In this document: one piece after another, positions 13,609-25,310 of the stretch
Position numbering within the stretch: position 1 is the first letter of the stretch
Layout: the number at the start of each line of letters is the position of its first letter
The notes under the pieces: model-generated
The model's database searches: none
What the model was told of the DNA's origin: nothing
The model's input: only the letters and a program-made list of their open reading frames with translations
From: an uncultured Nitrosospira sp.
GTDB lineage: Bacteria; Nitrospirota; Nitrospiria; Nitrospirales; Nitrospiraceae
Reading direction: 5' to 3'
Length of the DNA: 48,522 nucleotides
Assembly: GCA_900696515.1 (NCBI GenBank)
Contig: CAADGK010000128.1
Span: 1-48,522 of the forward strand
Position numbers and translations under genes: made by a program

Positions 13609-13971
13609 ATGAGCAAGATTGTCGTCGTTGATGATTCCAAGGCTGAGCTTCAGCTTATTGAGTCATATCTTAAATCCGCCCAGCATACCGTCGTGACGTT
13701 TCCGAATACCGAGAATCTGGAGGAGAATGTTCTGAGGGAAAGTCCCGATCTGATCGTGATGGATGTCGTCATGCCGGGCCGAAACGGGTTTCAGGCATGT
13801 CGAGATCTGAAGAACGATGCGCGGCTCACTCGGATTCCGATCCTCCTCTGTACCTCCAAGGGGCAAGAGAGCGACAAGTTCTGGGGGCAACAACAAGGTG
13901 CGAGCGGACATGTCGTCAAACCGTTCAAGTCCGAAGAGCTTCTTCAGGCCGTAAAGCGCGCATTGGGTTGA
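13609..13971 (+). CDS. CheY-like single-domain response regulator (PilG/PilH type)
   Basis: This 120-residue receiver begins MSKIVVVDDSKAELQLIESYL. It has the acidic pair in VVDDS, the phospho-acceptor Asp in DLIVMDVVMPGRNGFQ (about residue 51), the Thr/Ser in ILLCTSKGQESD, and the Lys in HVVKPFKSEELL. No output domain follows. In Pil-Chp systems a PilG/PilH regulator precedes a CheW, an MCP and a multi-Hpt CheA, as here. The ATG at 13609 is used because the receiver fold starts there; upstream in-frame codons from 13558 add nothing recognisable. A CheW gene follows after 29 bases. Confidence 0.92.
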   Translation: MSKIVVVDDSKAELQLIESYLKSAQHTVVTFPNTENLEENVLRESPDLIVMDVVMPGRNGFQACRDLKNDARLTRIPILLCTSKGQESDKFWGQQQGASGHVVKPFKSEELLQAVKRALG

Positions 13972-14000
13972 CCGCCGGAGGTGTAAAGGGTTGGAGCACA

Positions 14001-14519
14001 ATGCAATTGCCATGTGACCTGCCTCGACTTGTTTCCGACGCCGAGTCCGATCACGGCACACCGACCGGTTCCTGGAAGGCTTGCCTGGTCAGGCTAGGCG
14101 GAGAACTTTTTGCGATCGATTTACGTCAAGTCCAGGAGGTATTTGAGTTGGATGCAATCACTCCGGTCCCGGGGATGCCGGCATCGTTGGTGGGCGTCGC
14201 CAATGTCCGAGGGACGGTCGTGCCTCTGGCGGACTTACGGGTATCGTTGGGTGCTTCGCCATCCATCACTCCACGATATGCCGTCGTCGTACGACATGAT
14301 GCCCATCACATCGGATTGCTGATTGACGAGGTTCCGGAAATTCGATGGATGTTGCCAGAGGACAGGCTCGATCCCTCAGGGACCATGGGGATCGAAGCGC
14401 GTGCGCTATTGTCAGGTCTGATCCGGGTTGAGAACCGGGTCGGGGGGATGTTGGAGATTCCCGCGCTGGTCGCATCCGTCGAGGCCGGCATGGAAACGAA
14501 CAACATTGTGAAACCATGA
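14001..14519 (+). CDS. cheW: CheW-like adaptor (PilI type)
   Basis: The 172-residue protein is a CheW domain (about residues 25-160) with CLVRLGGELFAIDLRQVQEV, the VPGMPASLVGVANVRGTVVPLADLR core typical of CheW, and VGLLIDEV-like IGLLIDEVPEI. CheW couples a chemoreceptor to the CheA kinase at the inner membrane. The start ATG 14001 has GGAG 4-5 bases upstream; the longer frame from 13797 runs through the preceding receiver gene. Of the three CheW-type proteins in this cluster, this is the one with canonical motifs, so it is probably the structural coupling protein. Confidence 0.93.
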   Translation: MQLPCDLPRLVSDAESDHGTPTGSWKACLVRLGGELFAIDLRQVQEVFELDAITPVPGMPASLVGVANVRGTVVPLADLRVSLGASPSITPRYAVVVRHDAHHIGLLIDEVPEIRWMLPEDRLDPSGTMGIEARALLSGLIRVENRVGGMLEIPALVASVEAGMETNNIVKP

Positions 14520-14579
14520 AGAGTCACCCCGAATCCATATGCCAGAGCGGGGGTGATTTTCTGGAGGAGGATGTAGGGT

Positions 14580-16469
14580 ATGCCCAGGCATAGCAAATCG
14601 ACGGCTCGGCCGTCTCCGTCATGGTTTCAGAATCTCAAGACTCTGCCGAAGTTGATCCTCGGGTTTTCTGCAGTCGGTCTCATCATGATCTCCATCGGTT
14701 TCGTCGGCCTCATGGGTCTCCATACAGTGAAGGGCGAGTTACAGGCGATCTATAACGGATCGACGTTGGCACTTTCGAACGTCGGGATTGCCAGTACCAA
14801 CCTTGGCCTCTACCACAGCGCACTGTTACACGTCGGGCGACAGGTCAGGAAAAATGAGTTTGATGAGGCGCTTGCTCCGTTGGCCGAGCTCAAGAGACAG
14901 ACCCTGACTCACCTCAGTGCCTATCAGGCGACCACGCTGCATGAATCAACCAGCGGCCGGAGCGAAAGTAGAGACCTCGCCGGTCTTCATCAGGCATTGC
15001 GGGAATACTTTACGGCAACAGAAGGGGCGATAGGGGCGTATACGGATAGTTTCAACTCCTCGCTCACTGAGGAGCAACGGCAGAGCCTGCGTGAAGCCGG
15101 GCAAACTGCCGTGTCTGTCGATGTCGCAAGAAAGTACAACGCCGCGACGCTCCGGGTCCGGGAACTGATGACGACGATTCTTGAAGTGGCGAAGGAGATG
15201 AACGATCACGGGCAGGCTGAAGCGTCCCATCGGACGAACGTCGTCTTGGCCGGTTCGTTACTGGCGCTTCTGCTGGCCGCTGTGATCGGCTTTTATCTCG
15301 CCCGCTCGATCGCGCGGAACATTACGCATGTCGCCGATGTCGCCCAGCAAGCTGCAGCAGGCAATCTTCAAGCACGAGCCAGGCTTGAGAGCGAGGACGA
15401 GATTGGTCATATGGCGAAGGCGTTTAACATGATGCTCGACCGACTCACAAGTCTGGTTTCAACGGAGGAAGAACGAGATGCCATGCAAAAGCGCCTGGTG
15501 CAGTTTCTGGTCCTCGTGTCCGACGTGGGGAAGGGGGACTTGACCAAGCGCGGTGAAGTCACGGCCGATATGTTCGGGAATTTAGCGGACGGTTTTAATC
15601 TTATGATCCAACGATTTGCACAATTGATGAAACAGGTCAGAGAGTCGGCCGAACGGGTCAATCGTTCAGCCGGGACGTTACGGGATAACGCCGGTCAAAT
15701 GGCCGGCACTGCCAAGCATCAAGCGGACGAATCGATGAGGACGCTCGGGGCGGTAGAACAGCTTGCCGTTTCCATGAGGCAGGTCGCAGAAACCGCCGGA
15801 GCCTCGTCTGAATCAGCACGCCAGGTGTTAAAGGCGACAGAAGAGGGTCGAGTTGCGGTGCAGGAAACGGTGCAGGATATGCAGCGGATTCGGTCTGCGG
15901 TTCAACGAATGTCCAAACAAGTCAAAGCCCTGGGGGACCGCTCATTGGAAATCTCGCAGATCGTCTCGACGATTCGTGAAATCGCCAATCAAACCAACCT
16001 GCTTGCCTTGAACGCCGCGATTGAAGCCGCCGGGGCCGGTGAAGCCGGTGCTCGATTCGGCGTGGTGGCCGACCAGGTTCGTAAACTTGCAGAAAGCTCA
16101 ACGCACGCGACGCGTGAAATTGCCGATCTGGTTAAGGTCATCCAGGGCGAGACGCAGCATGCGGTGGTGGCGATGGAACACGAAACGCAGGCGGTGGAGG
16201 CAGGATCGGCCTCTGCCTTACGGACCGGTGATGTGTTCAAGGAAATTTCAACGATTGCGCAACGGTCCGCGGAGCTTGCCCAGAGCATCGCGGCCGCCGC
16301 GACGAACCAAACCGCATCAACCGATCAAGTCGGCCGATCCATCAAGGATTTCACCGGAGGTGCGCTTGCCACACAAAAAGCAACCGACTCGGCGCGGGCC
16401 ACGGTGGAGGACATGGTGAAATTGGCCGAAGGGCTCACGGCTTCGGTCTCGCAATTTAAGTTGACCTGA
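14580..16469 (+). CDS. Methyl-accepting chemotaxis protein (PilJ-like chemoreceptor)
   Basis: The 629-residue receptor has a cytoplasmic N-terminus, TM1 about residues 25-47, a mostly helical periplasmic region of about 170 residues, TM2 about residues 221-243, and a HAMP domain ([20 protein letters not shown]). A second HAMP-like stretch lies near [19 protein letters not shown], followed by a long signalling coiled coil. The hairpin tip lies near residues 467-507. It reads [20 protein letters not shown] followed by [12 protein letters not shown], where most receptors have AARAGE.GRGFAVVA. The start has a strong GGAGGAGG sequence upstream. The ligand cannot be predicted; the small helical sensor resembles four-helix-bundle receptors. 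Confidence 0.94.
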
Positions 16470-16517
16470 TGGCTCAATATCGATCACGCGCTTCCGTGTC
16501 AGCATAGACGTACGCCC

Positions 16518-19500
16518 ATGGGAGTGGATTCCAATCAACCTGATTTGATTCGAGTCTTCATCTCCGAGGCCTCGGATGGGACCAAAGCGCTAGCGCAAGC
16601 CGTGGGTGCCGCCGGCTGGCCGATTCCTCCTTCACACGAAATTTACGAACAATACATCATCGCGCATCGCCTTCGGGGCGCTGCTGCCCTCTATGGGTAT
16701 GGAGGACTGTCTCGAGTATATGCTGAGCTGGAAGTGATTCTTGAGCGGGGAAACGAAATTGCATCGGATAGCTGGCCACGGGTCGTGGAGGTCATGCGTG
16801 AGGTCATCCGTGGCGTAGACGCCTTGGTGCGCACGATCGGTCGGAATGGCCATGAAGATGAGGCTGTCGTCACACACTGCCTTGGCTTGCTGGAGCAACT
16901 GCAGGTTCTTCCTCCCGCCGTGTCCGTCAGTCTGGACTATGTTCATCCTATCGTTGATGCCGAGATTTTGTCTTACTTTGTCCCTGAAGCCGAGGAGTAT
17001 CTCCGGAACATCGATGAGGTCCTTCGCATTCTACGAGCGGCGCACGACAACGACGATGCCATCGATCGACTGTTTCGAACCGTCCATACGTTGAAAGGCT
17101 CAGCCGATACCGTCGGATTCCAAGTCATTGGAGATGTGGCTCGGCCGATGGAGGAGGGTGTGATTGCGGTAAGGGAAAATCGTTTGACATTGACCGACGC
17201 GATGTTGGGGATGTTTGAGAAAGCCGTCCACACGATCCAGATCCTGCTTCGACGCGATCCTCAAGGAGGGGACCAACTTCAGCGCGATGTGCCGGTTCTA
17301 ATCAACCAACTGAGACAGCTGTGTGAGGGGGCGGCTGCGACTTCTCCCTTGGGAGAAGAGACCGGGGGGCCGGATGTCCATCCGAACAGTCTGTCGAGAC
17401 CTGAACCGACCGTCAGTGTCGAAGTGCCGCCTCCGGATCTGTCTGAGGCGTATTTGCTTCCAGAATTGGATCCGGAGGTCCTCTCGTATTTCGTTCCCGA
17501 GGCGCAGGAACACCTTGAGATCTTGGAGGAGAATCTGCTTCGTTTGGACAAGGATCCTCAGAATAGGGAGCTGATCAACCAACTGTTTCGCACCGCCCAT
17601 ACACTCAAGGGGTCAGCCTATACCGTCGGGTTTCAATCAATCGGCGATCTCGTGCATCACGTTGAAGACTTCATGGGAGCCGTACGGGACGGTCGACTGG
17701 TCGTTCAATCAGGCCATACGGATCTTATCCTTCGCTCAGTCGACGTGGTACGGGTGTTGATGCGAAGAGATCTTGGCGCGGTATCCGGTACCAGACAGCG
17801 ATTCGAGGAGACACGACTTGATCTGAAGCGGCTGGACCAGCCCAATACCGTCGACGGGGCGTCTGCAAGTCCGTTCGTTGATGTGTCACGGGCTCCTGTA
17901 GAATCCCAGATCTCACGCATGGATCCCGTCGAGAACGACAAACCGGCGGAGGGGAAATCCTCAGACGATCGCGAGGCGATTCGTGTCAGTTATGGTCGAC
18001 TCGAACGACTCATGAATCTCGTGGGGGAATTGGTCATCGGGCGTGGTCGACTGGAACAGCGACTGCGTGTCCTCGATCAGCTCTCACAACAGGTCTTGGT
18101 ATTCAAGTCCCGATTGGCCGAGACGGTGCAATCCTTTTCCGACAAGCATACGTTTACCTACCAAGAGACGCCCCACACCGCGACGCCGGTTCCGGCGCAA
18201 GGCGCGGCGGCGTTCGGTGATTTCGGCAGCCTTGAACTTGATAAGTATGACGACTTTAATATCCTGGCCCGGCGTATTAGTGAAGTGACGGCCGATATCA
18301 GCGAGTCGTTGGCGCAGTTGGACGGCTCGATTCACCGGGCGCACGATGATATGAGCCAGTTGCAGCACCTGACTCTCCTGATGCGAGACGAGATAGCGCA
18401 TGCCCGCATGGTTCCGATCGGGACTCCGTTCACTCGATTTCGCCGGGCCATCCGAGAAATCGCGCGGGCTTCGAACAAGGAGGTCGCATTGGTGACGTCC
18501 GGCGAGCAGACGGAAGTTGACGCAGGCGTTGTTGAGCGTCTGGTGGATCCGCTCGTTCATCTGGTGCGTAATGCCGTCTATCATGGCATTGAACCGGCCG
18601 CCGATCGACTGGCCAGGGGAAAGCCGATGGTGGGCACGGTCCATTTGCATGCGGCGCATCGCGGGAATTTCATGACCATTGAAGTCGAAGACGATGGGGC
18701 GGGATTGGACCTGGCCAAAATCCGAGCCAAGGCGATCAAAATGGGACTGGCCGATTCACGCCGGATTGCAAGCATGTCCGATGCGGAGATCCTGCAATCT
18801 ATTTTCCTTCCTGGTTTTTCAACGGCGGAGAAAATCGGCGATCAAGCCGGACGTGGGGTGGGGCTGGACGTCGTGAAACGGGTGATCGAAGGGATGAACG
18901 GCCATATTGCCGTGGAGTCCGAACCCGGTGTCGGAACAAAGTTCACCTTGAGTCTTCCCGTCACGCTGTTGATTGCCACGGCCTTGATCGTACGGTCCGG
19001 CGCCGAGCGCTATGCAGTTCCGTTGCTTAACATTCAGGAAGTGACCATGCCGACGCCATCGTCATGGCGAGTGGAGGATGAGCGGACATTGTTGCAGGTC
19101 GGTGAGCAAATGATTGAGGTGCAGCCGTTGGACCATCTGCTTCGGAGAGCATATGGTCCTGTCACAGGGACAATGCCTGTGGTCATCGTCCGTACGGCCG
19201 GAGGTCCGATGGGGTTGGCCGTCGATGAGTTATTGGGCCAACAAGAAGTCGTGATCAAACCATTGGGCCAACTGAAGCCCCTTGCCCAGTCGTGCTTCGG
19301 GGGAGCCACAATCGATCCGGAAGGGAGAGTCATGTTAGTGGTCGATCCGACGCGGTTGGGCGGGCGAGACGGCAAAGATTCGCGTGTACAGGCCGTACTT
19401 TCACAAAATGCCGTCCGATCACACCAAGTAGTTTCTGACCCGATGAGATCTGCAGCGCATCAAGACGTTCGCCTGTTGTTGATCGACGATTCCCTGAGTA

Positions 19501-19847
19501 TCCGCAAGTTTGTCGGGAAAATGTTGGAGTCGGCGGGATATGAGGTTGACACGGCTGTCGATGGAGAAGATGGCCTCAGAAAGGCGTCAGGCTTTAGGTA
19601 TAGTATGATTCTGACCGATCTTGAAATGCCGAAATTGAACGGATTCGAGGTGATTCAAGCCCTACGAAGACGCTCTGAAACCCGCGAGACACCGGTGGTT
19701 GTGATGACGACAAGGGCAGGGGACAAACACCGACAGTTGGCGATCAATATCGGGGCAAATTCCTATATTGCCAAGCCCGTTGAAGAACGGCTGTTGCTTC
19801 AAGAAGTCGAGCGATGGATTGGGCGTGCGCAAACGCTCGGCCAGTAG
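16518..19847 (+). CDS. Hybrid CheA-type histidine kinase with three Hpt domains (ChpA/PilL-like)
   Basis: This 1109-residue kinase has three Hpt-like domains: a divergent first (His50 in AHRLRGAAALYGY), a second (His190 in VHTLKGSADTVGF) and a third (His361 in AHTLKGSAYTVGF). The second and third each begin with a near-identical SYFVPEA phrase, suggesting duplication. A dimerisation region follows near residue 487 (YGRLERLMNLVGELVIGRG), then an HATPase with HLVRNAVYHGIE, EDDGAGLDL and GRGVGLDVVKRVIEGMNG. Next come a CheW-like domain (about 818-950) and a C-terminal receiver with its Asp near 1034 (MILTDLEMPKLNGFE). The layout is that of ChpA/PilL kinases, which regulate type IV pili or related outputs. 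It should phosphorylate its own receiver and the small regulators in the cluster. Confidence 0.95.
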   Translation: MGVDSNQPDLIRVFISEASDGTKALAQAVGAAGWPIPPSHEIYEQYIIAHRLRGAAALYGYGGLSRVYAELEVILERGNEIASDSWPRVVEVMREVIRGVDALVRTIGRNGHEDEAVVTHCLGLLEQLQVLPPAVSVSLDYVHPIVDAEILSYFVPEAEEYLRNIDEVLRILRAAHDNDDAIDRLFRTVHTLKGSADTVGFQVIGDVARPMEEGVIAVRENRLTLTDAMLGMFEKAVHTIQILLRRDPQGGDQLQRDVPVLINQLRQLCEGAAATSPLGEETGGPDVHPNSLSRPEPTVSVEVPPPDLSEAYLLPELDPEVLSYFVPEAQEHLEILEENLLRLDKDPQNRELINQLFRTAHTLKGSAYTVGFQSIGDLVHHVEDFMGAVRDGRLVVQSGHTDLILRSVDVVRVLMRRDLGAVSGTRQRFEETRLDLKRLDQPNTVDGASASPFVDVSRAPVESQISRMDPVENDKPAEGKSSDDREAIRVSYGRLERLMNLVGELVIGRGRLEQRLRVLDQLSQQVLVFKSRLAETVQSFSDKHTFTYQETPHTATPVPAQGAAAFGDFGSLELDKYDDFNILARRISEVTADISESLAQLDGSIHRAHDDMSQLQHLTLLMRDEIAHARMVPIGTPFTRFRRAIREIARASNKEVALVTSGEQTEVDAGVVERLVDPLVHLVRNAVYHGIEPAADRLARGKPMVGTVHLHAAHRGNFMTIEVEDDGAGLDLAKIRAKAIKMGLADSRRIASMSDAEILQSIFLPGFSTAEKIGDQAGRGVGLDVVKRVIEGMNGHIAVESEPGVGTKFTLSLPVTLLIATALIVRSGAERYAVPLLNIQEVTMPTPSSWRVEDERTLLQVGEQMIEVQPLDHLLRRAYGPVTGTMPVVIVRTAGGPMGLAVDELLGQQEVVIKPLGQLKPLAQSCFGGATIDPEGRVMLVVDPTRLGGRDGKDSRVQAVLSQNAVRSHQVVSDPMRSAAHQDVRLLLIDDSLSIRKFVGKMLESAGYEVDTAVDGEDGLRKASGFRYSMILTDLEMPKLNGFEVIQALRRRSETRETPVVVMTTRAGDKHRQLAINIGANSYIAKPVEERLLLQEVERWIGRAQTLGQ

Positions 19848-19917
19848 ATATGCGGAAAGCTTTGGATTGATTGACGAAATTTGAATTCTTGCGGAGAATG
19901 ATCCGGAACGTGTCATC

Positions 19918-20421
19918 ATGAGCCCTTCGGCGAAGAGAGAGGAGCGTGTGTCACCCACCTCGACTTCTCAGCCACATTTTCTGATCACCACGATCGGCGG
20001 AAGATATCTGGCGTTCGAAGCCGAACTCGTTCAAGGGGTCCTGACCAACGAGGAGGTGGGCCTGCCCCGTCACGATCCTGTTGTGCAAGGCATTCCCTAT
20101 CGAGCGATCGATCTTGTGGAGCGGCTTCACCTGCCATGCGAGTGGCTATTGGGCAAGGCCAGTGTGGTGCTCCTTGCCGATGAGAGGTCTCGAGGGTGTG
20201 TGCGAGTTCAGAAGGTCCATGGCATCCTTGAGACTCATGGAGCCCAGGTCCTCTCCCTTCCTGTTCAGTTCCGTGGGCCGGAACGAAGATGGTACCGAGG
20301 CATGATCCTGTTCGATCGCAGCGTGGCACTTGTGCTGAATACAGCATGGGTATTTGAAGAACAGGTCGAGGGAGTGGAATCAAGTACCATGTCGAAGGGA
20401 ATATCGTCCATTGCGGCTTAG
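19918..20421 (+). CDS. Divergent CheW-like protein
   Basis: The 167-residue protein has a CheW-like pattern (FLITTIGGRYLAFEAELVQGV, later YRAIDLVERL, then CVRVQKVHGILE and MILFDRSVALVLN), but the usual NxRG core is replaced by VVQGIPYRAIDLVERL. It is probably a CheW relative with altered partner contacts. It lies between the CheA gene and another divergent CheW-like gene. The ATG at 19918 is the first in frame; an upstream GGAGAATGATCCGG stretch is only a fair ribosome binding site. Function as an adaptor is inferred from context. Confidence 0.7.
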   Translation: MSPSAKREERVSPTSTSQPHFLITTIGGRYLAFEAELVQGVLTNEEVGLPRHDPVVQGIPYRAIDLVERLHLPCEWLLGKASVVLLADERSRGCVRVQKVHGILETHGAQVLSLPVQFRGPERRWYRGMILFDRSVALVLNTAWVFEEQVEGVESSTMSKGISSIAA

Positions 20422-20450
20422 GCGGGAGCGATTCAGGACAGGAACCGGGC

Positions 20451-20900
20451 ATGTTGAGAACGAGTGGCAATTCTCCGCATCATGAAACGCACGATTCCTG
20501 GCACCTTCTGGTATTTTCCGTAGGGGGAAGACGGGTCGCTGTCAAGACTCTTGAGGTCGGAGATATCTCGCACTGGGATGAATCGATTCCCGTGTCCGGG
20601 CAAACTCCTTTTGTGACCGCGGTTGTTCGGCGTAACCAAGCCGTACTGCCGGTCTTTGATCTGTCTGCAATGCTTCAACGTGTCGTGCAGGGAAGCAGTC
20701 TCCTATGTCTCCGCGTGAAGCATCCTGACGGTGATATGGTGATCTGTATTGATGAAGTCATTCCGGTTCTCCAGACGCTTGATCACGCCATGATACGGCC
20801 CTACCAAGGCACCGATGTGCCGGCCGAGGGAAGCTATGTGCAAGGGCAGGATGAAGTTCCGATTCTTTCCGTGTCCAAACTGGGGATGGGTCCAGGGTGA
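20451..20900 (+). CDS. Second divergent CheW-like protein
   Basis: The 149-residue protein has a CheW-like arrangement: LLVFSVGGRRVAVKTLEVGD, then FVTAVVRRNQAVLPVFDLSAML where the canonical core is VxNxRGxxxPxxDL, then MVICIDEVIPVLQ and a C-terminal DEVPILSVSKLG. The VVRRNQAVLPVFDLS segment keeps the Arg and the PxxDL part of the CheW core. It follows the other divergent CheW-like gene by 29 bases and precedes the receiver/coiled-coil gene by 36. The likely role is adaptor or competitor at the receptor-kinase array; this is inference. Confidence 0.72.
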   Translation: MLRTSGNSPHHETHDSWHLLVFSVGGRRVAVKTLEVGDISHWDESIPVSGQTPFVTAVVRRNQAVLPVFDLSAMLQRVVQGSSLLCLRVKHPDGDMVICIDEVIPVLQTLDHAMIRPYQGTDVPAEGSYVQGQDEVPILSVSKLGMGPG

Positions 20901-20936
20901 TGCCCGTTGGTGGAGGGCCGAACGAAAGGTGCAAGC

Positions 20937-22130
20937 ATGCCGAAGATCCTGATCGCGGATGACAGTATTGCGGTTCGAAAAGTGGCTGAGCGACTCTTAA
21001 TAGAGGCCGGGTTTCAGGTCGCGCTCGCTGCAAGTGGGGAAGAAGCGTTGGCCTATCTTGCGAAGGAACAACCGGACGTGGTGGTGTCGGATGTGATCAT
21101 GCCGGACAAGAGCGGGTACGAGGTCTGTGCATTCGTCCGCAGGCAGGCTGCACTTGCGACCACACCTGTCCTGTTGATTTCCGGCATCGTCAACGACGAA
21201 GTGACCAAGCAGGCGGAGTCTTGCCGGGCAGATGGAGTGTTGAAGAAGCCCTTTCAAGGCACCTCGCTCAAAGATCGAGTCTTCGAGCTGCTGGCAAAAC
21301 GCCAGGAGCCTCCGTCCGCTGCCGTTATTTCGTCACACCCCGCTCAAGGACCGACGGAGGAGAGCCCGCTTCCCGTATTGGGGGATCATCGGCAGGTGGG
21401 GCTTCAGGCGCCAAGTCAGCTCAATGAGCTTGAGCGTCAACTGCAGATGGAGCGGACTCGTTCCGAAGAACTCTCCATGCGGATAGCCGATGTCACCGCA
21501 CAACTGGTTCAAGCCAAGGAGCTTGAATCGCAGCTGACCACGGAGCGAGAGCGAGTCAGCGAATTACAGCAGCAGGTGACCATCCTGGAGCAGCAAGTGG
21601 AGAGAATCCCTGAGCTGGAAGCAACAGTGAAGTCGGAACAGGATGTCGTCAATTCGCTGAAGCAGGCTCTGCTCAATTCTCAGGCAACCTTGAGCCGGGT
21701 GGAAGAATTGGAGTCGTCCTTGAACGCTGAACGAGCGGCAGCCGAACAACTCGTTCAACAACTTTCCGATTTGGAACAGGTTTCGGCACGAGTGAAGGAG
21801 TCTGAAACGAGGTTGGCGGATCACCAACACGAGATCGCGGAACTTCAACAGACTCGCGCATCGCTCGAAGCCGATCTCTTAACCGAACGAAAGCACGCGT
21901 CTGAGACGGTCCAGAGATTGCAGGAATTGGAGCGCGCAGCCGCCAGAATCCCGGAACTGGAGCAACTGCTTGCCGTGGAACGTGACCGCAATGGAGAGCT
22001 TACAGAACGTGCGTTGGAAGCGGAGCAGTCTGCCGAGAGCGCCACCAGGCGGTTCGAGGAGCTGGTAAGAAAACTTGGTGAGATCGCGGGATTGGCGTCT
22101 CAGCTTGGAAGCGGGAAGAGTCAGACGTAG
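20937..22130 (+). CDS. Receiver domain fused to a long coiled coil
   Basis: The 397-residue protein starts with a complete receiver (residues 1-120): ILIADDSIAVRKVAERLL, Asp52 in VVVSDVIMPDKSGYEV, ISGIVNDEV at the Thr/Ser position, and VLKKPFQGTSLKDRV. After a Pro-rich linker, residues about 160-390 form an almost unbroken heptad pattern rich in Glu, Gln, Leu and Arg. It includes recurring phrases such as ELESQLTTERERVSEL, RVEELESSLNAERAAAEQ and IPELEQLLAVERDRNGEL. No enzymatic output domain is present. The start ATG 20937 is chosen because the receiver begins there; the frame opens at 20907. The layout recalls Myxococcus AglZ, a receiver-like domain plus coiled coil that works with a Che-like (Frz) system. 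That parallel is by architecture only. Confidence 0.88.
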   Translation: MPKILIADDSIAVRKVAERLLIEAGFQVALAASGEEALAYLAKEQPDVVVSDVIMPDKSGYEVCAFVRRQAALATTPVLLISGIVNDEVTKQAESCRADGVLKKPFQGTSLKDRVFELLAKRQEPPSAAVISSHPAQGPTEESPLPVLGDHRQVGLQAPSQLNELERQLQMERTRSEELSMRIADVTAQLVQAKELESQLTTERERVSELQQQVTILEQQVERIPELEATVKSEQDVVNSLKQALLNSQATLSRVEELESSLNAERAAAEQLVQQLSDLEQVSARVKESETRLADHQHEIAELQQTRASLEADLLTERKHASETVQRLQELERAAARIPELEQLLAVERDRNGELTERALEAEQSAESATRRFEELVRKLGEIAGLASQLGSGKSQT

Positions 22131-22184
22131 GCCGGACAACGGGATCATTGATGCGATTGGGATGGTGGTGAAGGATCGCCGCAC

Positions 22185-23123
22185 ATGTCTGTTGAGACGG
22201 AAGACGAATTTCAGAAGGAACTAGGAGAGCTGTTTGTACAGGAGGCTTTCGAATGGCTTCAGCAGATTCATGTCGCCCTCGATGAACTTCAACAGGTCCC
22301 GGAGACCGAGAGGCATCGGGCGCTGGCTCTGACGATCAAAGTTGGAATCACCAATCTCGGCGGATCGGCGGCGACCGTCAATCTTATGGATGTCGAACGA
22401 GCGAGTTTCTCCACGCTTCCAATCGTCGAAGCGCTGCAGGATCCGTCCGTTCGTATTTCGTCCGATGACTTCCGCACTCTTGCTCAGCAGTTGGGACACA
22501 TCCATGAAGCACTGACTCGTGCGACAGGAGTGACCTTCAAGACAACCTCTCCGCAGACATCCGGAAATAGACCGTCCGCCACGATTGCAACAACAGAGCT
22601 ACTCGCCACTCTCCAGGGGCTTCAGACCAAATGCGGCGCATCGGGAACGTTTCCTCGGAATCTCGTCCAGGTGATCGTGGCTCAAGCCGAAGCACTTGTC
22701 CAGCGAGGAGTGGAACACTATCAGGTCACGTTGATTCAGGAGTTTCTTGATCGGTCAGCCGAAGGAGATCACGTATTTCTCACGCTTGTTCAACAACAGG
22801 AGAGGCATTTGGTCGCTGTTCTCCGTGCCCTCGCATCGGGGTGTATCGAGGGCGGCACAGGTTCGAGCGATCTGCATAACGCGGTCGAACGAGCGGCACA
22901 GTTGTGGTCGGCGGCTCAGCAGGTGAACGCAGGACAGGCGATGACATTCTTTATGGGACTCCATAGTTTTCTCACGATTGCCTCGCAACAGCGCGTTGTC
23001 ATTCCGGCAAACAGCATGCATGCTGTTGAGTTGCGGTTCGCCCAGTGCGTGAAGGCCATCGAGGAATGGGTGGAACGTGGGCGAGTTGAGCGGTTAGCCA
23101 TCCACAGCGCGGTATTTCCCTGA
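22185..23123 (+). CDS. Hpt-like protein lacking the phospho-accepting histidine
   Basis: This 312-residue protein has an N-terminal segment built like an Hpt domain: FVQEAFEWLQQIHVALDELQ as helix A, then ITNLGGSAATVNLMDVERAS where an active Hpt would have H-x-L-K-G-S-A. Thr56 stands where the His should be, and Lys is replaced by Gly59. The rest (about 130-312) is helical and unrecognised. Context between a receiver/coiled-coil protein and an HD-GYP protein, all on one strand, suggests a binding or scaffolding role rather than phosphotransfer. The ATG at 22185 is the first in frame. Confidence 0.7.
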   Translation: MSVETEDEFQKELGELFVQEAFEWLQQIHVALDELQQVPETERHRALALTIKVGITNLGGSAATVNLMDVERASFSTLPIVEALQDPSVRISSDDFRTLAQQLGHIHEALTRATGVTFKTTSPQTSGNRPSATIATTELLATLQGLQTKCGASGTFPRNLVQVIVAQAEALVQRGVEHYQVTLIQEFLDRSAEGDHVFLTLVQQQERHLVAVLRALASGCIEGGTGSSDLHNAVERAAQLWSAAQQVNAGQAMTFFMGLHSFLTIASQQRVVIPANSMHAVELRFAQCVKAIEEWVERGRVERLAIHSAVFP

Positions 23124-23216
23124 AGGGATCTTCGTGATTGCGTTTATTAGGCACTGTCAGCTGGTGGTCGGCAAGGTGTTCTCTCCTGCCGGCGGCCAGG
23201 ATGCGGGGATGTTCTC

Positions 23217-24236
23217 GTGAAAACCTGGTATGGGAGAGCGATTCAGACCTTGGACGGAATGGCAAGGGCCGCGCAGGGCCGCCAAGCCATTCCAATGCGT
23301 AGCCTTGAAACGCTGGCCTCGGACGTGGTTGCGTCGCTCCAGGAGACGGATGAGCTTGTGGTGGAAGCATTGTCCGGGCCAGCAGGCTCGCCACTGCTGA
23401 CCAATCTACTGAATGTCTCCATCCTTGGGACACGAGTTGGGATTGGATTGGGCTACTATGGGCAGGAGTTGCATCGACTGGCACTTGCCGGGCTTGTGCA
23501 TGATATCGGGGTATTCGCAGTGCCTGTAGGATTGCTGACCAAAAGCGGGCGATTAACTCCGGAAGAACGGAGCCTGATCGAACAACATCCGGAGCGCGGG
23601 TTTGAGATCATCCTCGCATGCGACCCGGCCTGCCATTGGCTGGCGGAAATCACACGGCAGGCGCATGAACGATGGAACGGACAGGGATATCCCCATCGCC
23701 TCAAGGGAAGGCAGATTCACGAGATGGCGCAAATTTGCGGGCTGGTTGATGTATTTGATGCATTAGTCAGTGAGCGTCCGTATCGTCCAAGGCTGTTTCC
23801 GCATGAAGCCATGAAGGAACTGCTTCTGACGGAACGGGCGACCTTCCCACGTGAGATTCTCAAGGCGCTGGTCGAACAGTTGTCTGTGTATCCGCTAGGA
23901 ACCACCGTGCGGCTCACCACCGGGGCGGTAGGAATCGTGGTGAAAATCAATAGCCGCTATCCTCTCCGCCCGGTCGTGAAGCTGATCGGATCAGAGTCCG
24001 AAGCGGGCGTACAATCTCATGAGCTGGATTTGAGCCTCACACCGTTGATTGCAGTCGTTGAGACATTAAAGCCGCCCGTTACCGGACAGGTTCAACCTGG
24101 GAAGGTTATGCCGGGACCGCACGTGTCTTCACCTGCGACGGATGCTTCGGATCACTTTACCTCGCTGTTGGAGAGTCTTGACGCTATTGCCTCGACGCTT
24201 CAAGAGGTTGTTCAAACCAAAAGGCGGCCTTCCTAG
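23217..24236 (+). CDS. HD-GYP domain protein with altered metal ligands (possible c-di-GMP phosphodiesterase)
   Basis: The 339-residue protein begins with GTG and carries an HD-GYP domain at about residues 60-205. It shows LAGLVHDIGVFAVP (HD pair), EQHPERG (next His), AHERWNGQGYPHRLKG (GYP motif) and VDVFDALVSERPY. HD-GYP enzymes hydrolyse cyclic di-GMP using two or three metal ions. Three positions differ from active members: the early HS/HxVNV His is missing (LLNVSILG), HDIGK reads HDIGV, and the HHE doublet before GYP reads AHE. Activity is therefore uncertain. A C-terminal segment (about 220-300) is beta-rich. This is the last gene of the chemosensory cluster. Confidence 0.88.
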   Translation: MKTWYGRAIQTLDGMARAAQGRQAIPMRSLETLASDVVASLQETDELVVEALSGPAGSPLLTNLLNVSILGTRVGIGLGYYGQELHRLALAGLVHDIGVFAVPVGLLTKSGRLTPEERSLIEQHPERGFEIILACDPACHWLAEITRQAHERWNGQGYPHRLKGRQIHEMAQICGLVDVFDALVSERPYRPRLFPHEAMKELLLTERATFPREILKALVEQLSVYPLGTTVRLTTGAVGIVVKINSRYPLRPVVKLIGSESEAGVQSHELDLSLTPLIAVVETLKPPVTGQVQPGKVMPGPHVSSPATDASDHFTSLLESLDAIASTLQEVVQTKRRPS

Positions 24237-24312
24237 CAGTGTGTTGACAAACCCTGCGCCCTTCCTCAAACGGGCCGAGCCTCACGGTGACTGACCGAAT
24301 CGAGATGCCCCG

Positions 24313-24436
24313 CAGGCTGTTCAGAAAGGCTGTCCAGCAAGGCCGCAGCGAGCGAAGGGGCGAATCGTACTCTGGCCCGTACGTTGAGCCTCTGAGCGAC
24401 GTGAGAACGCCGCTGGCGGCCTTTGTCAACAGCCTG
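24313..24436 (+). repeat. Intergenic palindromic repeat, about 124 bp, with 25-26 bp imperfect terminal inverted repeats
   Basis: The left end CAGGCTGTTCAGAAAGGC (running to 24338) is nearly the reverse complement of the right end at 24412-24436 (GCCTTTGTCAACAGCCTG). The interior also folds on itself: AAGGCCGCAGCGAGCG lies towards the left and GAGAACGCCGCTGGCGGCC towards the right. It contains no gene. I recall near-identical intergenic elements in Nitrospira genomes, which suggests a mobile or REP/MITE-like family. That recollection needs a genome search. Confidence 0.8.
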
Positions 24437-24779
24437 CTAGCCTAAGCGAATCAGCACCTCCCGTTTGGGGGGCTCATGCCCCCAGGCCAAGCGTGGTTAT
24501 GACTCAACGTTCCATTCCCCACAAGATCCAAACCCTTTGATCACTTGTGTCGGGTGTCAAGGGGGATTCTGCAAGAGCCGTCCATTGCGTGCCGCCATCC
24601 AGATAGTAGATTCCGAAAGCTATCTGGAATGTCAATGAGATAGGGCATATGACCCTGATGCGTGAGAGGAACGTGTAGAACCACGGAATGGCCGGTAGTC
24701 TCCACTTTTAAGGGACGCAGGAGATCGTTATAATGAAAACTTGCTGAGTAACTGTCGTTTGAATTAGAAGGGGAATGGC
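24437..24779 (+). other. Intergenic stretch with hairpins and a weak minus-strand frame
   Basis: After the palindromic repeat, about 340 bases precede the next gene. GGGGGC (24468-24473) pairs with GCCCCC (24478-24483) around TCAT. CCAGATAG (24599-24606) pairs with CTATCTGG (24620-24627). A minus-strand frame at 24541-24786 (81 codons, TTG start) gives a somewhat protein-like sequence (LLRPLKVETTGHSVVLHVPL, MPYLIDIPDSFRNLLSGWRH) but has no clear ribosome binding site and crosses the promoter of the plus-strand gene. I do not call it a gene. It could be the remnant of one. Confidence 0.45.
24706..24734 (+). promoter_or_regulatory. Possible sigma-70-type promoter of the membrane-protein gene
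   Basis: A perfect TATAAT at 24729-24734 lies about 45 bases before the GTG start at 24780. The -35 position with 17-base spacing (24706-24711) reads TTTTAA, a weak match to TTGACA. The promoter is inferred from these words only. Confidence 0.4.
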
Positions 24780-25310
24780 GTGCCAAAACTCATTACTGTT
24801 CATCATCCGCAGCAAACCATGCAGCAGGCGCTCGAGTACGTGAAGACGTACATTCTCTTCCCGTCAGGCTTTCTCGGTCTGGTCTGCTTGGTCGGGAGTG
24901 TCGGCGGGCTGGGCTACCAGTTGCTCGGAACTGATAGTTATACATGGGATACGTTTTATCAGAGCTCAGGCTTGTTTCTCTCAGGAATAGGGTTGGGAGC
25001 AGCACAAACACTCTATCAGCGGTACCTTCTGCGGGAGTTTCCTGAGGTTCTTGCCGCACGAATGCGGGATGGGTTGAACCGACAGAAGGGGAAACTCAAG
25101 AAACAATCCTCGGCACCGGAGATTGAACATCCGGGGCGCCAACTGATTCCGGTGGCGTATAGTGTTGGTATTCTGGCACTCGTGGGAAGTGCCATTGCCG
25201 CGTTCTCATACGGTCGTGTGCACATGATTCCCGCTATCCTTATGCCTTGGGCGGGGTTCTATTGGGCAAAAATGTTCCTCTGGCGTAGAGTAATCACCGC
25301 TGCGAAGTGA
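24780..25310 (+). CDS. Small hypothetical inner-membrane protein
   Basis: The 176-residue protein starts at GTG 24780 with GAAGGGGAA about 6 bases upstream. It shows about four hydrophobic segments: FLGLVCLVGSVGGLGYQLLG, a glycine-rich LFLSGIGLGAAQ, LIPVAYSVGILALVGSAIAA and MIPAILMPWAGFYWAKMFLW. Between the second and third is a basic cytoplasmic-type loop (RDGLNRQKGKLKKQSS). I do not recognise the family. It stands alone, ending 10 bases from the convergent lpxD gene with no clear terminator between them. Confidence 0.8.
   Translation: MPKLITVHHPQQTMQQALEYVKTYILFPSGFLGLVCLVGSVGGLGYQLLGTDSYTWDTFYQSSGLFLSGIGLGAAQTLYQRYLLREFPEVLAARMRDGLNRQKGKLKKQSSAPEIEHPGRQLIPVAYSVGILALVGSAIAAFSYGRVHMIPAILMPWAGFYWAKMFLWRRVITAAK

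Follow-up and report, generated by a model that had tools for sequence, protein, structure and literature searches.

In the Pil-Chp system of Pseudomonas aeruginosa, a chemosensory system of the type IV pili (Tfp) class, ChpB and PilK are both necessary for PilJ methylation and directional motility (PMC12632253). FimL, an Hpt-like protein with Gln in place of His, has a proposed link to the Chp system (PMC3019171). In Myxococcus xanthus, FrzS combines a receiver-like domain with a coiled coil and regulates exopolysaccharide (PMC3158785), and the kinase DifE of the Dif system also regulates exopolysaccharide, with StkA placed between pili and Dif (PMC4671073, PMC4319316). Here we analyzed a stretch of 48,522 nucleotides (the window), contig CAADGK010000128.1 (C128) of a 4.59-Mb genome from an uncultured member of the Nitrospiraceae (GCA_900696515.1), which contains a nine-gene chemosensory cluster at positions 13609-24236. 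With moderate confidence, we read this cluster as encoding a Pil-Chp-like (Tfp-type) array without methylation adaptation that uses FimL- and FrzS-like output parts to set pilus activity, and probably exopolysaccharide as well. The cluster probably tunes surface movement or attachment of the cells.

All nine genes are on the plus strand with intergenic gaps of 29 to 93 bases (with the start codons chosen here). Pfam matches and coordinates confirmed the layout given in a preliminary description made from the letters alone, in which four classical genes are followed at short intervals by a divergent 3' half. The first gene (13609-13971) encodes a stand-alone receiver of the PilG/PilH/CheY kind with its Asp kept (Response_reg, 86 bits), at 65 to 89% identity across the loci that retain it. 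Next are a PilI-like CheW (14004-14519; CheW, 98.8 bits), a chemoreceptor (MCP) with 4HB, HAMP, and MCPsignal domains (14580-16469), and a CheA (16518-19847) with three Hpt, dimerization, ATPase, and CheW domains and a C-terminal receiver. A motif scan placed the His motifs of the CheA Hpt domains at residues 50, 190, and 361. The three-Hpt CheA described earlier thus stands for the window, but not as a general trait: three H-x-L-K/R-G motifs occurred only in the window and locus L034 among the 41 CheA open reading frames (ORFs) scanned, the rest having one or two. A receiver, CheW, MCP, multi-Hpt CheA with a C-terminal receiver, and more than one CheW are all shared with Pil-Chp, as is a pseudo-Hpt partner (FimL there, HptL here), the likeness of the receivers, CheW, and MCP being one of domain rather than orthology. 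The receivers gave only generic CheY- and PleD-type matches against the PDB, and 4HB_MCP_1 was the sole sensor family match of the MCP, which showed no PilJ-type sensor domain as in Pil-Chp.

The 3' half adds components that Pil-Chp does not have. It opens with two divergent CheW-like proteins (19918-20421, 30.7 bits; 20451-20900, 39.3 bits; CheW cutoff 23.5), the first of which shows 34 to 65% identity where found within the genus. The next gene (20937-22130) encodes a receiver with Asp52 kept (Response_reg, 81.8 bits), which was modeled as a receiver followed by a single 232-residue helix (residues 160-391). The helix block has a pLDDT mostly of 87 to 95, and the receiver part was modeled with low to middling confidence. 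This receiver-coil protein shares with FrzS an N-terminal receiver-type domain, a long coiled coil, and a chemosensory tie, whereas the FrzS receiver is without the Asp. The following gene (22185-23123) encodes the 312-amino-acid HptL, which matched no Pfam or NCBIfam family. An HptL profile built from 22 relatives matched the CheA P1 domains of solved structures (E values of 4e-4 and 5e-4) and aligned a T of HptL opposite the CheA phospho-His. In 43 aligned rows (the window and 42 loci), none of the 42 that cover the site has His, the residue being mostly T or A, which bears out the earlier description of an Hpt-like protein without His; in seven rows from deep lineages the Hpt motif itself is worn. 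The C-terminal part of HptL (about residues 130-308) had no convincing match, and an AlphaFold model built from three sequences had a mean pLDDT of only 45.9. HptL is Hpt-like by profile only. Compared by description, FimL and HptL are both Hpt-like proteins without the phospho-His, but two Hpt-like domains, each with Gln at the site, occur in FimL and a single recognizable Hpt-like part in HptL. The likeness to FimL and FrzS is best taken as analogy of build, and an output through a scaffold or polarity system, as suggested in the preliminary description, is plausible only on the same ground. The last gene (23217-24236) encodes an HD-GYP protein (HD_5, 97.6 bits), and in some relatives an AAA ATPase gene precedes it. 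Judged by domain content, the core is of a known kind, and the third CheW, the receiver-coil protein, the HD-GYP protein, and the ATPase of relatives exceed a normal Pil-Chp set.

A further difference from Pil-Chp concerns methylation. Using the strict methylation motif of PMC12632253, we found no match in the window MCP, and 28 of the 37 MCP ORFs of relatives (only those above 580 amino acids were taken) were likewise without the motif. Two further MCPs encoded by this genome (MCPsignal, 180 and 183 bits) have five and two motifs, respectively; one lies on the contig with a second CheA and FliG, and the other is beside CheR and CheB. Both end in EEF, a tail that we take to be CheR-docking-like. 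As described earlier, the cluster has no cheR or cheB, and the only CheR and CheB matches of the genome are on contig C73, away from the window's contig. CheR was missing from six, and CheB from five, of the seven HptL-bearing genomes of a second family (f2; 87 to 94% complete). The array thus seems to be without methylation adaptation. Because both ChpB and PilK are necessary for PilJ methylation and directional motility in Pil-Chp, the absence of this pair from the cluster is, by gene content, the main functional difference between the two systems.

We compared 42 loci of relatives, 40 of them fetched and the others being L031 (the contig of genome G027) and L032; L032 and L043 come from the same contig and were counted separately. 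The preliminary description had hinged its reading on whether the 3' genes stay linked to the CheA cluster in relatives. All nine genes occur in the same order in 24 of the 42 loci (among them L035 and L067, with split or short receiver-coil frames and, in L067, also HptL), and in 41 of 42, CheA is followed downstream by a receiver protein and HptL. Because of this shared order, the 3' half belongs to the CheA cluster and is conserved across the window's own family (f1). Close relatives that bear names are Nitrospira MAGs, one of them labeled Nitrospiraceae. The remaining loci are smaller. Seven f2 loci are without the HD-GYP gene, some also without further genes; seven loci from deep lineages of the genus retain CheA, the receiver-coil protein, HptL, and the MCP, with CheW in six of them; and three have partial clusters (L047, L068, and L070). 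L062, from genome G062, is truncated by the contig end and holds only an HptL-like fragment that is nearer to the second, fused HptL described below (54%). Two reduced f2 loci, L057 and L061, have the set receiver-CheA-receiver protein-HptL with no adjoining MCP or CheW match. A search of 116 relatives detected HptL in 71 of them. Across 395 genomes of the phylum, the HptL profile matched 109, of which 100 belong to f1 (110 genomes), three to f2, and six to other families (E values of 7.5e-11 to 9.7e-7 in these six).

Genome content supports a link between the cluster and type IV pili. We scanned 58 of the 110 family genomes, namely, all 10 without HptL and 48 with it. Strong PilM (E value of at most 1e-30, a threshold set after the scores were seen) was present in 47/48 genomes with HptL and in 4/10 without (Fisher test, 3.4e-5), and PilT over its cutoff gave the same counts (47/48 versus 4/10; 3.4e-5). 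No genome with HptL lacked both PilM and PilT, as opposed to 5 of the 10 without HptL. In the window genome, PilM is on contig C5 and a PilT-type pair is on C98. The tie to type IV pili proposed earlier is therefore supported by genome co-occurrence but not by gene neighborhood. Pil genes were also sought beside the f2 cluster and rejected, the neighbors scanned there being pyrimidine-pathway enzymes, antiporter-type subunits, a LuxR-type regulator, an oxidoreductase, and a helicase-related protein. In G047, a 99% complete genus member without HptL, a PilT-like frame (G047:C51:11548-12246) is broken by four internal stops, and PilM, CheR, CheB, and FliG had no match.

Other features of relatives, which go beyond the preliminary description, point to exopolysaccharide. 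An intact AAA ATPase gene lies between HptL and the HD-GYP gene in 14 of the 42 loci (tblastn), and remnants of it were found in four loci on three contigs. The one copy scanned for it matched PF13401, and two relatives matched TIGR03015, the XrtA/PEP-CTERM-associated ATPase, at 215.8 and 211.5 bits. These matches are below the 324.5-bit cutoff, and the relatives' copy is within a chemosensory cluster. Intact, remnant, and absent states interleave on a CheA tree built from relatives only (43 rows: the loci without L055 [543 amino acids], L062 [no CheA], L031, and L043, plus the window, L085, L086, L088, and L089), so the ATPase has been lost repeatedly. Furthermore, 11 of the 42 loci, two of these being one contig, encode the HD-GYP protein as a fusion with a second HptL. 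Outside the chemosensory cluster, three f2 genomes (L073-L075) hold the ATPase and an HD-GYP paralogue side by side, and six genus genomes (L079-L084) hold an HD-GYP paralogue without the ATPase. The paralogue loci scanned (L073, L075, and L079) encode Wzz/Wzc-type kinase, Poly_export, Wzy_C, or glycosyltransferase domains. This distribution suggests recruitment out of an exopolysaccharide locus, the direction of transfer being unproven.

These paralogues would also fit an alternative cellular function (ACF) system that has exopolysaccharide or biofilm matrix as its sole output, with pili just accompanying the surface lifestyle of larger genomes. That multi-Hpt CheA proteins are known from ACF as well as Tfp systems, and that FrzS regulates exopolysaccharide (PMC3158785), agree with such an output as well. 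Against it, HptL-bearing genomes lacking both PilM and PilT numbered 0/48, and the f2 loci and the seven deep genus loci retain CheA and HptL in clusters that are without the HD-GYP protein and ATPase. We consider this alternative unlikely.

Several observations weigh against the Pil-Chp-like reading. With the curated Pfam cutoff for PilM, the counts become 47/48 versus 6/10 (P of 0.002), although the two extra PilM proteins are weak 28-bit matches of a type also seen beside strong PilM elsewhere. The family genomes without HptL are mostly small (1.7 to 3.2 Mb), so joint loss may reflect general reduction, and the relatives share ancestry and are not independent in the test. Four HptL-less family genomes retain strong PilM, as do three genus members that were not part of the test and gave no HptL match (G023, G036, and G041; 77 to 86% complete), and many genomes of a third family (f3) have PilT over its cutoff, with HptL in none listed. 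No pil gene was present among the ten cluster-neighbor proteins scanned, the relatives' other neighbors falling outside the scan, and PilM is far from the cluster in single-contig relatives (such as G053, G061, and G022). Nine of the 37 MCP ORFs of relatives have one methylation motif. For the window's species, the exopolysaccharide link is indirect, with the ATPase absent and no HD-GYP paralogue in the genome at an E value of 1e-40.

The state of the HD-GYP site bears on whether the output could be a second messenger itself, with the HD-GYP protein still active as a phosphodiesterase for cyclic di-GMP (c-di-GMP) or another cyclic nucleotide. Profile alignment to 4mcw (chain numbering six above that of the PmGH paper) showed that the HD pair, the GYP motif, and the equivalents of H250, H277, and D305 are retained, which favors an active enzyme, but that N63, V99, and A149 sit at PmGH H189, K225, and H276, in agreement with the changed ligands noted earlier. 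In PmGH, H189A and H276A essentially abolished activity, and K225A did likewise (PMC4159591). N63 is invariant in all 18 aligned HD-GYP members, including five paralogues that lie elsewhere than in the cluster, and none of the 18 has Lys at 99 or His at 149; because of this invariance, the changed site is a trait of the subfamily. In the alignment to PmGH, the metal and catalytic residues of an active phosphodiesterase are incomplete. Since residues essential in PmGH are changed, c-di-GMP breakdown by the window protein is unlikely, and a tie to c-di-GMP, as raised in the preliminary description, would probably not lie in its breakdown. We regard an active enzyme as improbable.

Flagella are common in the genus by the FliG marker, with matches in 61 of 69 members. 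As described earlier, the cluster itself has no flagellar gene. The only FliG match of the window genome is on contig C143, which also carries another CheA and CheW. FliG had no match in the HptL bearers G002, G014, G021 (99% complete), G048, and G062 (99%; HptL represented by a fragment at the end of a contig), nor in any of the seven HptL-bearing f2 genomes. A second chemotaxis system of the ordinary kind, acting on the flagellar motor, would suit the FliG frequency in the genus, but retention of the cluster in FliG-less genomes (G021 and 7/7 in f2), the separate CheA and CheW on the contig of FliG, and the window MCP without a methylation motif make it highly improbable. The cluster occurs with type IV pili and, because it is kept in FliG-less HptL bearers, does not need flagella.

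For the Pil-Chp-like array, we propose a model in which the MCP and three CheW-type adaptors would hold CheA in an array, and the His-bearing Hpt domains of CheA would pass phosphate to the stand-alone receiver, to the receiver-coil protein, and to the receiver of CheA itself, a probable sink. Not expected to take phosphate in the usual way, HptL may bind those receivers or CheA, as proposed for FimL, and together with the long-helix receiver protein may place the output. The HD-GYP protein would cooperate with HptL as a switch or adaptor that does not cleave. As its output, the system would set pilus activity and probably, along with it, the export of exopolysaccharide; we propose this second output because relatives hold HD-GYP copies, and in f2 also the ATPase, at exopolysaccharide-export loci. 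The cluster would then resemble Dif in having a chemosensory kinase that regulates exopolysaccharide. More speculatively, the lineage may have given up methylation memory, with a pseudo-Hpt protein and an inactive HD-GYP protein now coupling a pilus-type CheA array to the export of exopolysaccharide. The HD-GYP protein would have been recruited, with its ATPase, from an exopolysaccharide-export locus and, though catalytically dead, would serve as a c-di-GMP-sensing switch bound by HptL. We think it rather unlikely that this full scenario is correct.

At the site of the relatives' ATPase gene, the window has a gap on the plus strand (23124-23216) in which tblastn and a remnant test detected no remnant, and no ATPase was found in the genome at an E value of 1e-40. 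A candidate remnant in this 93-base gap was rejected, no frame reaching the 95% shuffle level; the L034 gap gave weak remnant matches equaled by 7 to 13 of 300 shuffles. Scans for promoters and terminators yielded no clear excess over shuffles (5 versus 5.6 and 12 versus 9.7, respectively). Downstream of the cluster are 543 bases without a called gene (24237-24779) and then a plus-strand gene for a small protein at the border (24780-25310; no Pfam family) whose membership in the cluster is uncertain. It is conserved, present even beside reduced clusters, and seen wherever a genus or family locus extends to the border. One flank in these loci consists of a small unknown gene and LpxD, ketosynthase, and LptF/LptG genes, and the opposite flank, where reached, of a CobB/CobQ-type or neighboring cob-type gene; the domains were identified on the copies in the window. 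Immediately upstream of the receiver gene, L044 has a Tll0287-like (PF11845) gene (L044:1220-1978), and several other loci have unlabeled ORFs of 244 to 280 amino acids; none was called in the window.

Nitrospira are dominant nitrite oxidizers, and some oxidize ammonia completely (PMC5596200). Chemotaxis and flagella are covered in one Nitrospira genome paper (PMC5767232) and chemotaxis only in another (PMC5596200), and neither contains a word beginning with pili or pilus. Among the open-licence papers listed in searches of the chemosensory and pilus literature on Nitrospira, none describes the cluster in its title or the start of its abstract. A conserved, flagellum-independent array whose HptL occurs in 100 of the 110 family genomes sampled gives a concrete handle on surface sensing and attachment in Nitrospira. 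The cluster also offers a natural test of array function in the absence of methylation, and of the part played by Hpt domains that have no His, which has been called yet to be determined.

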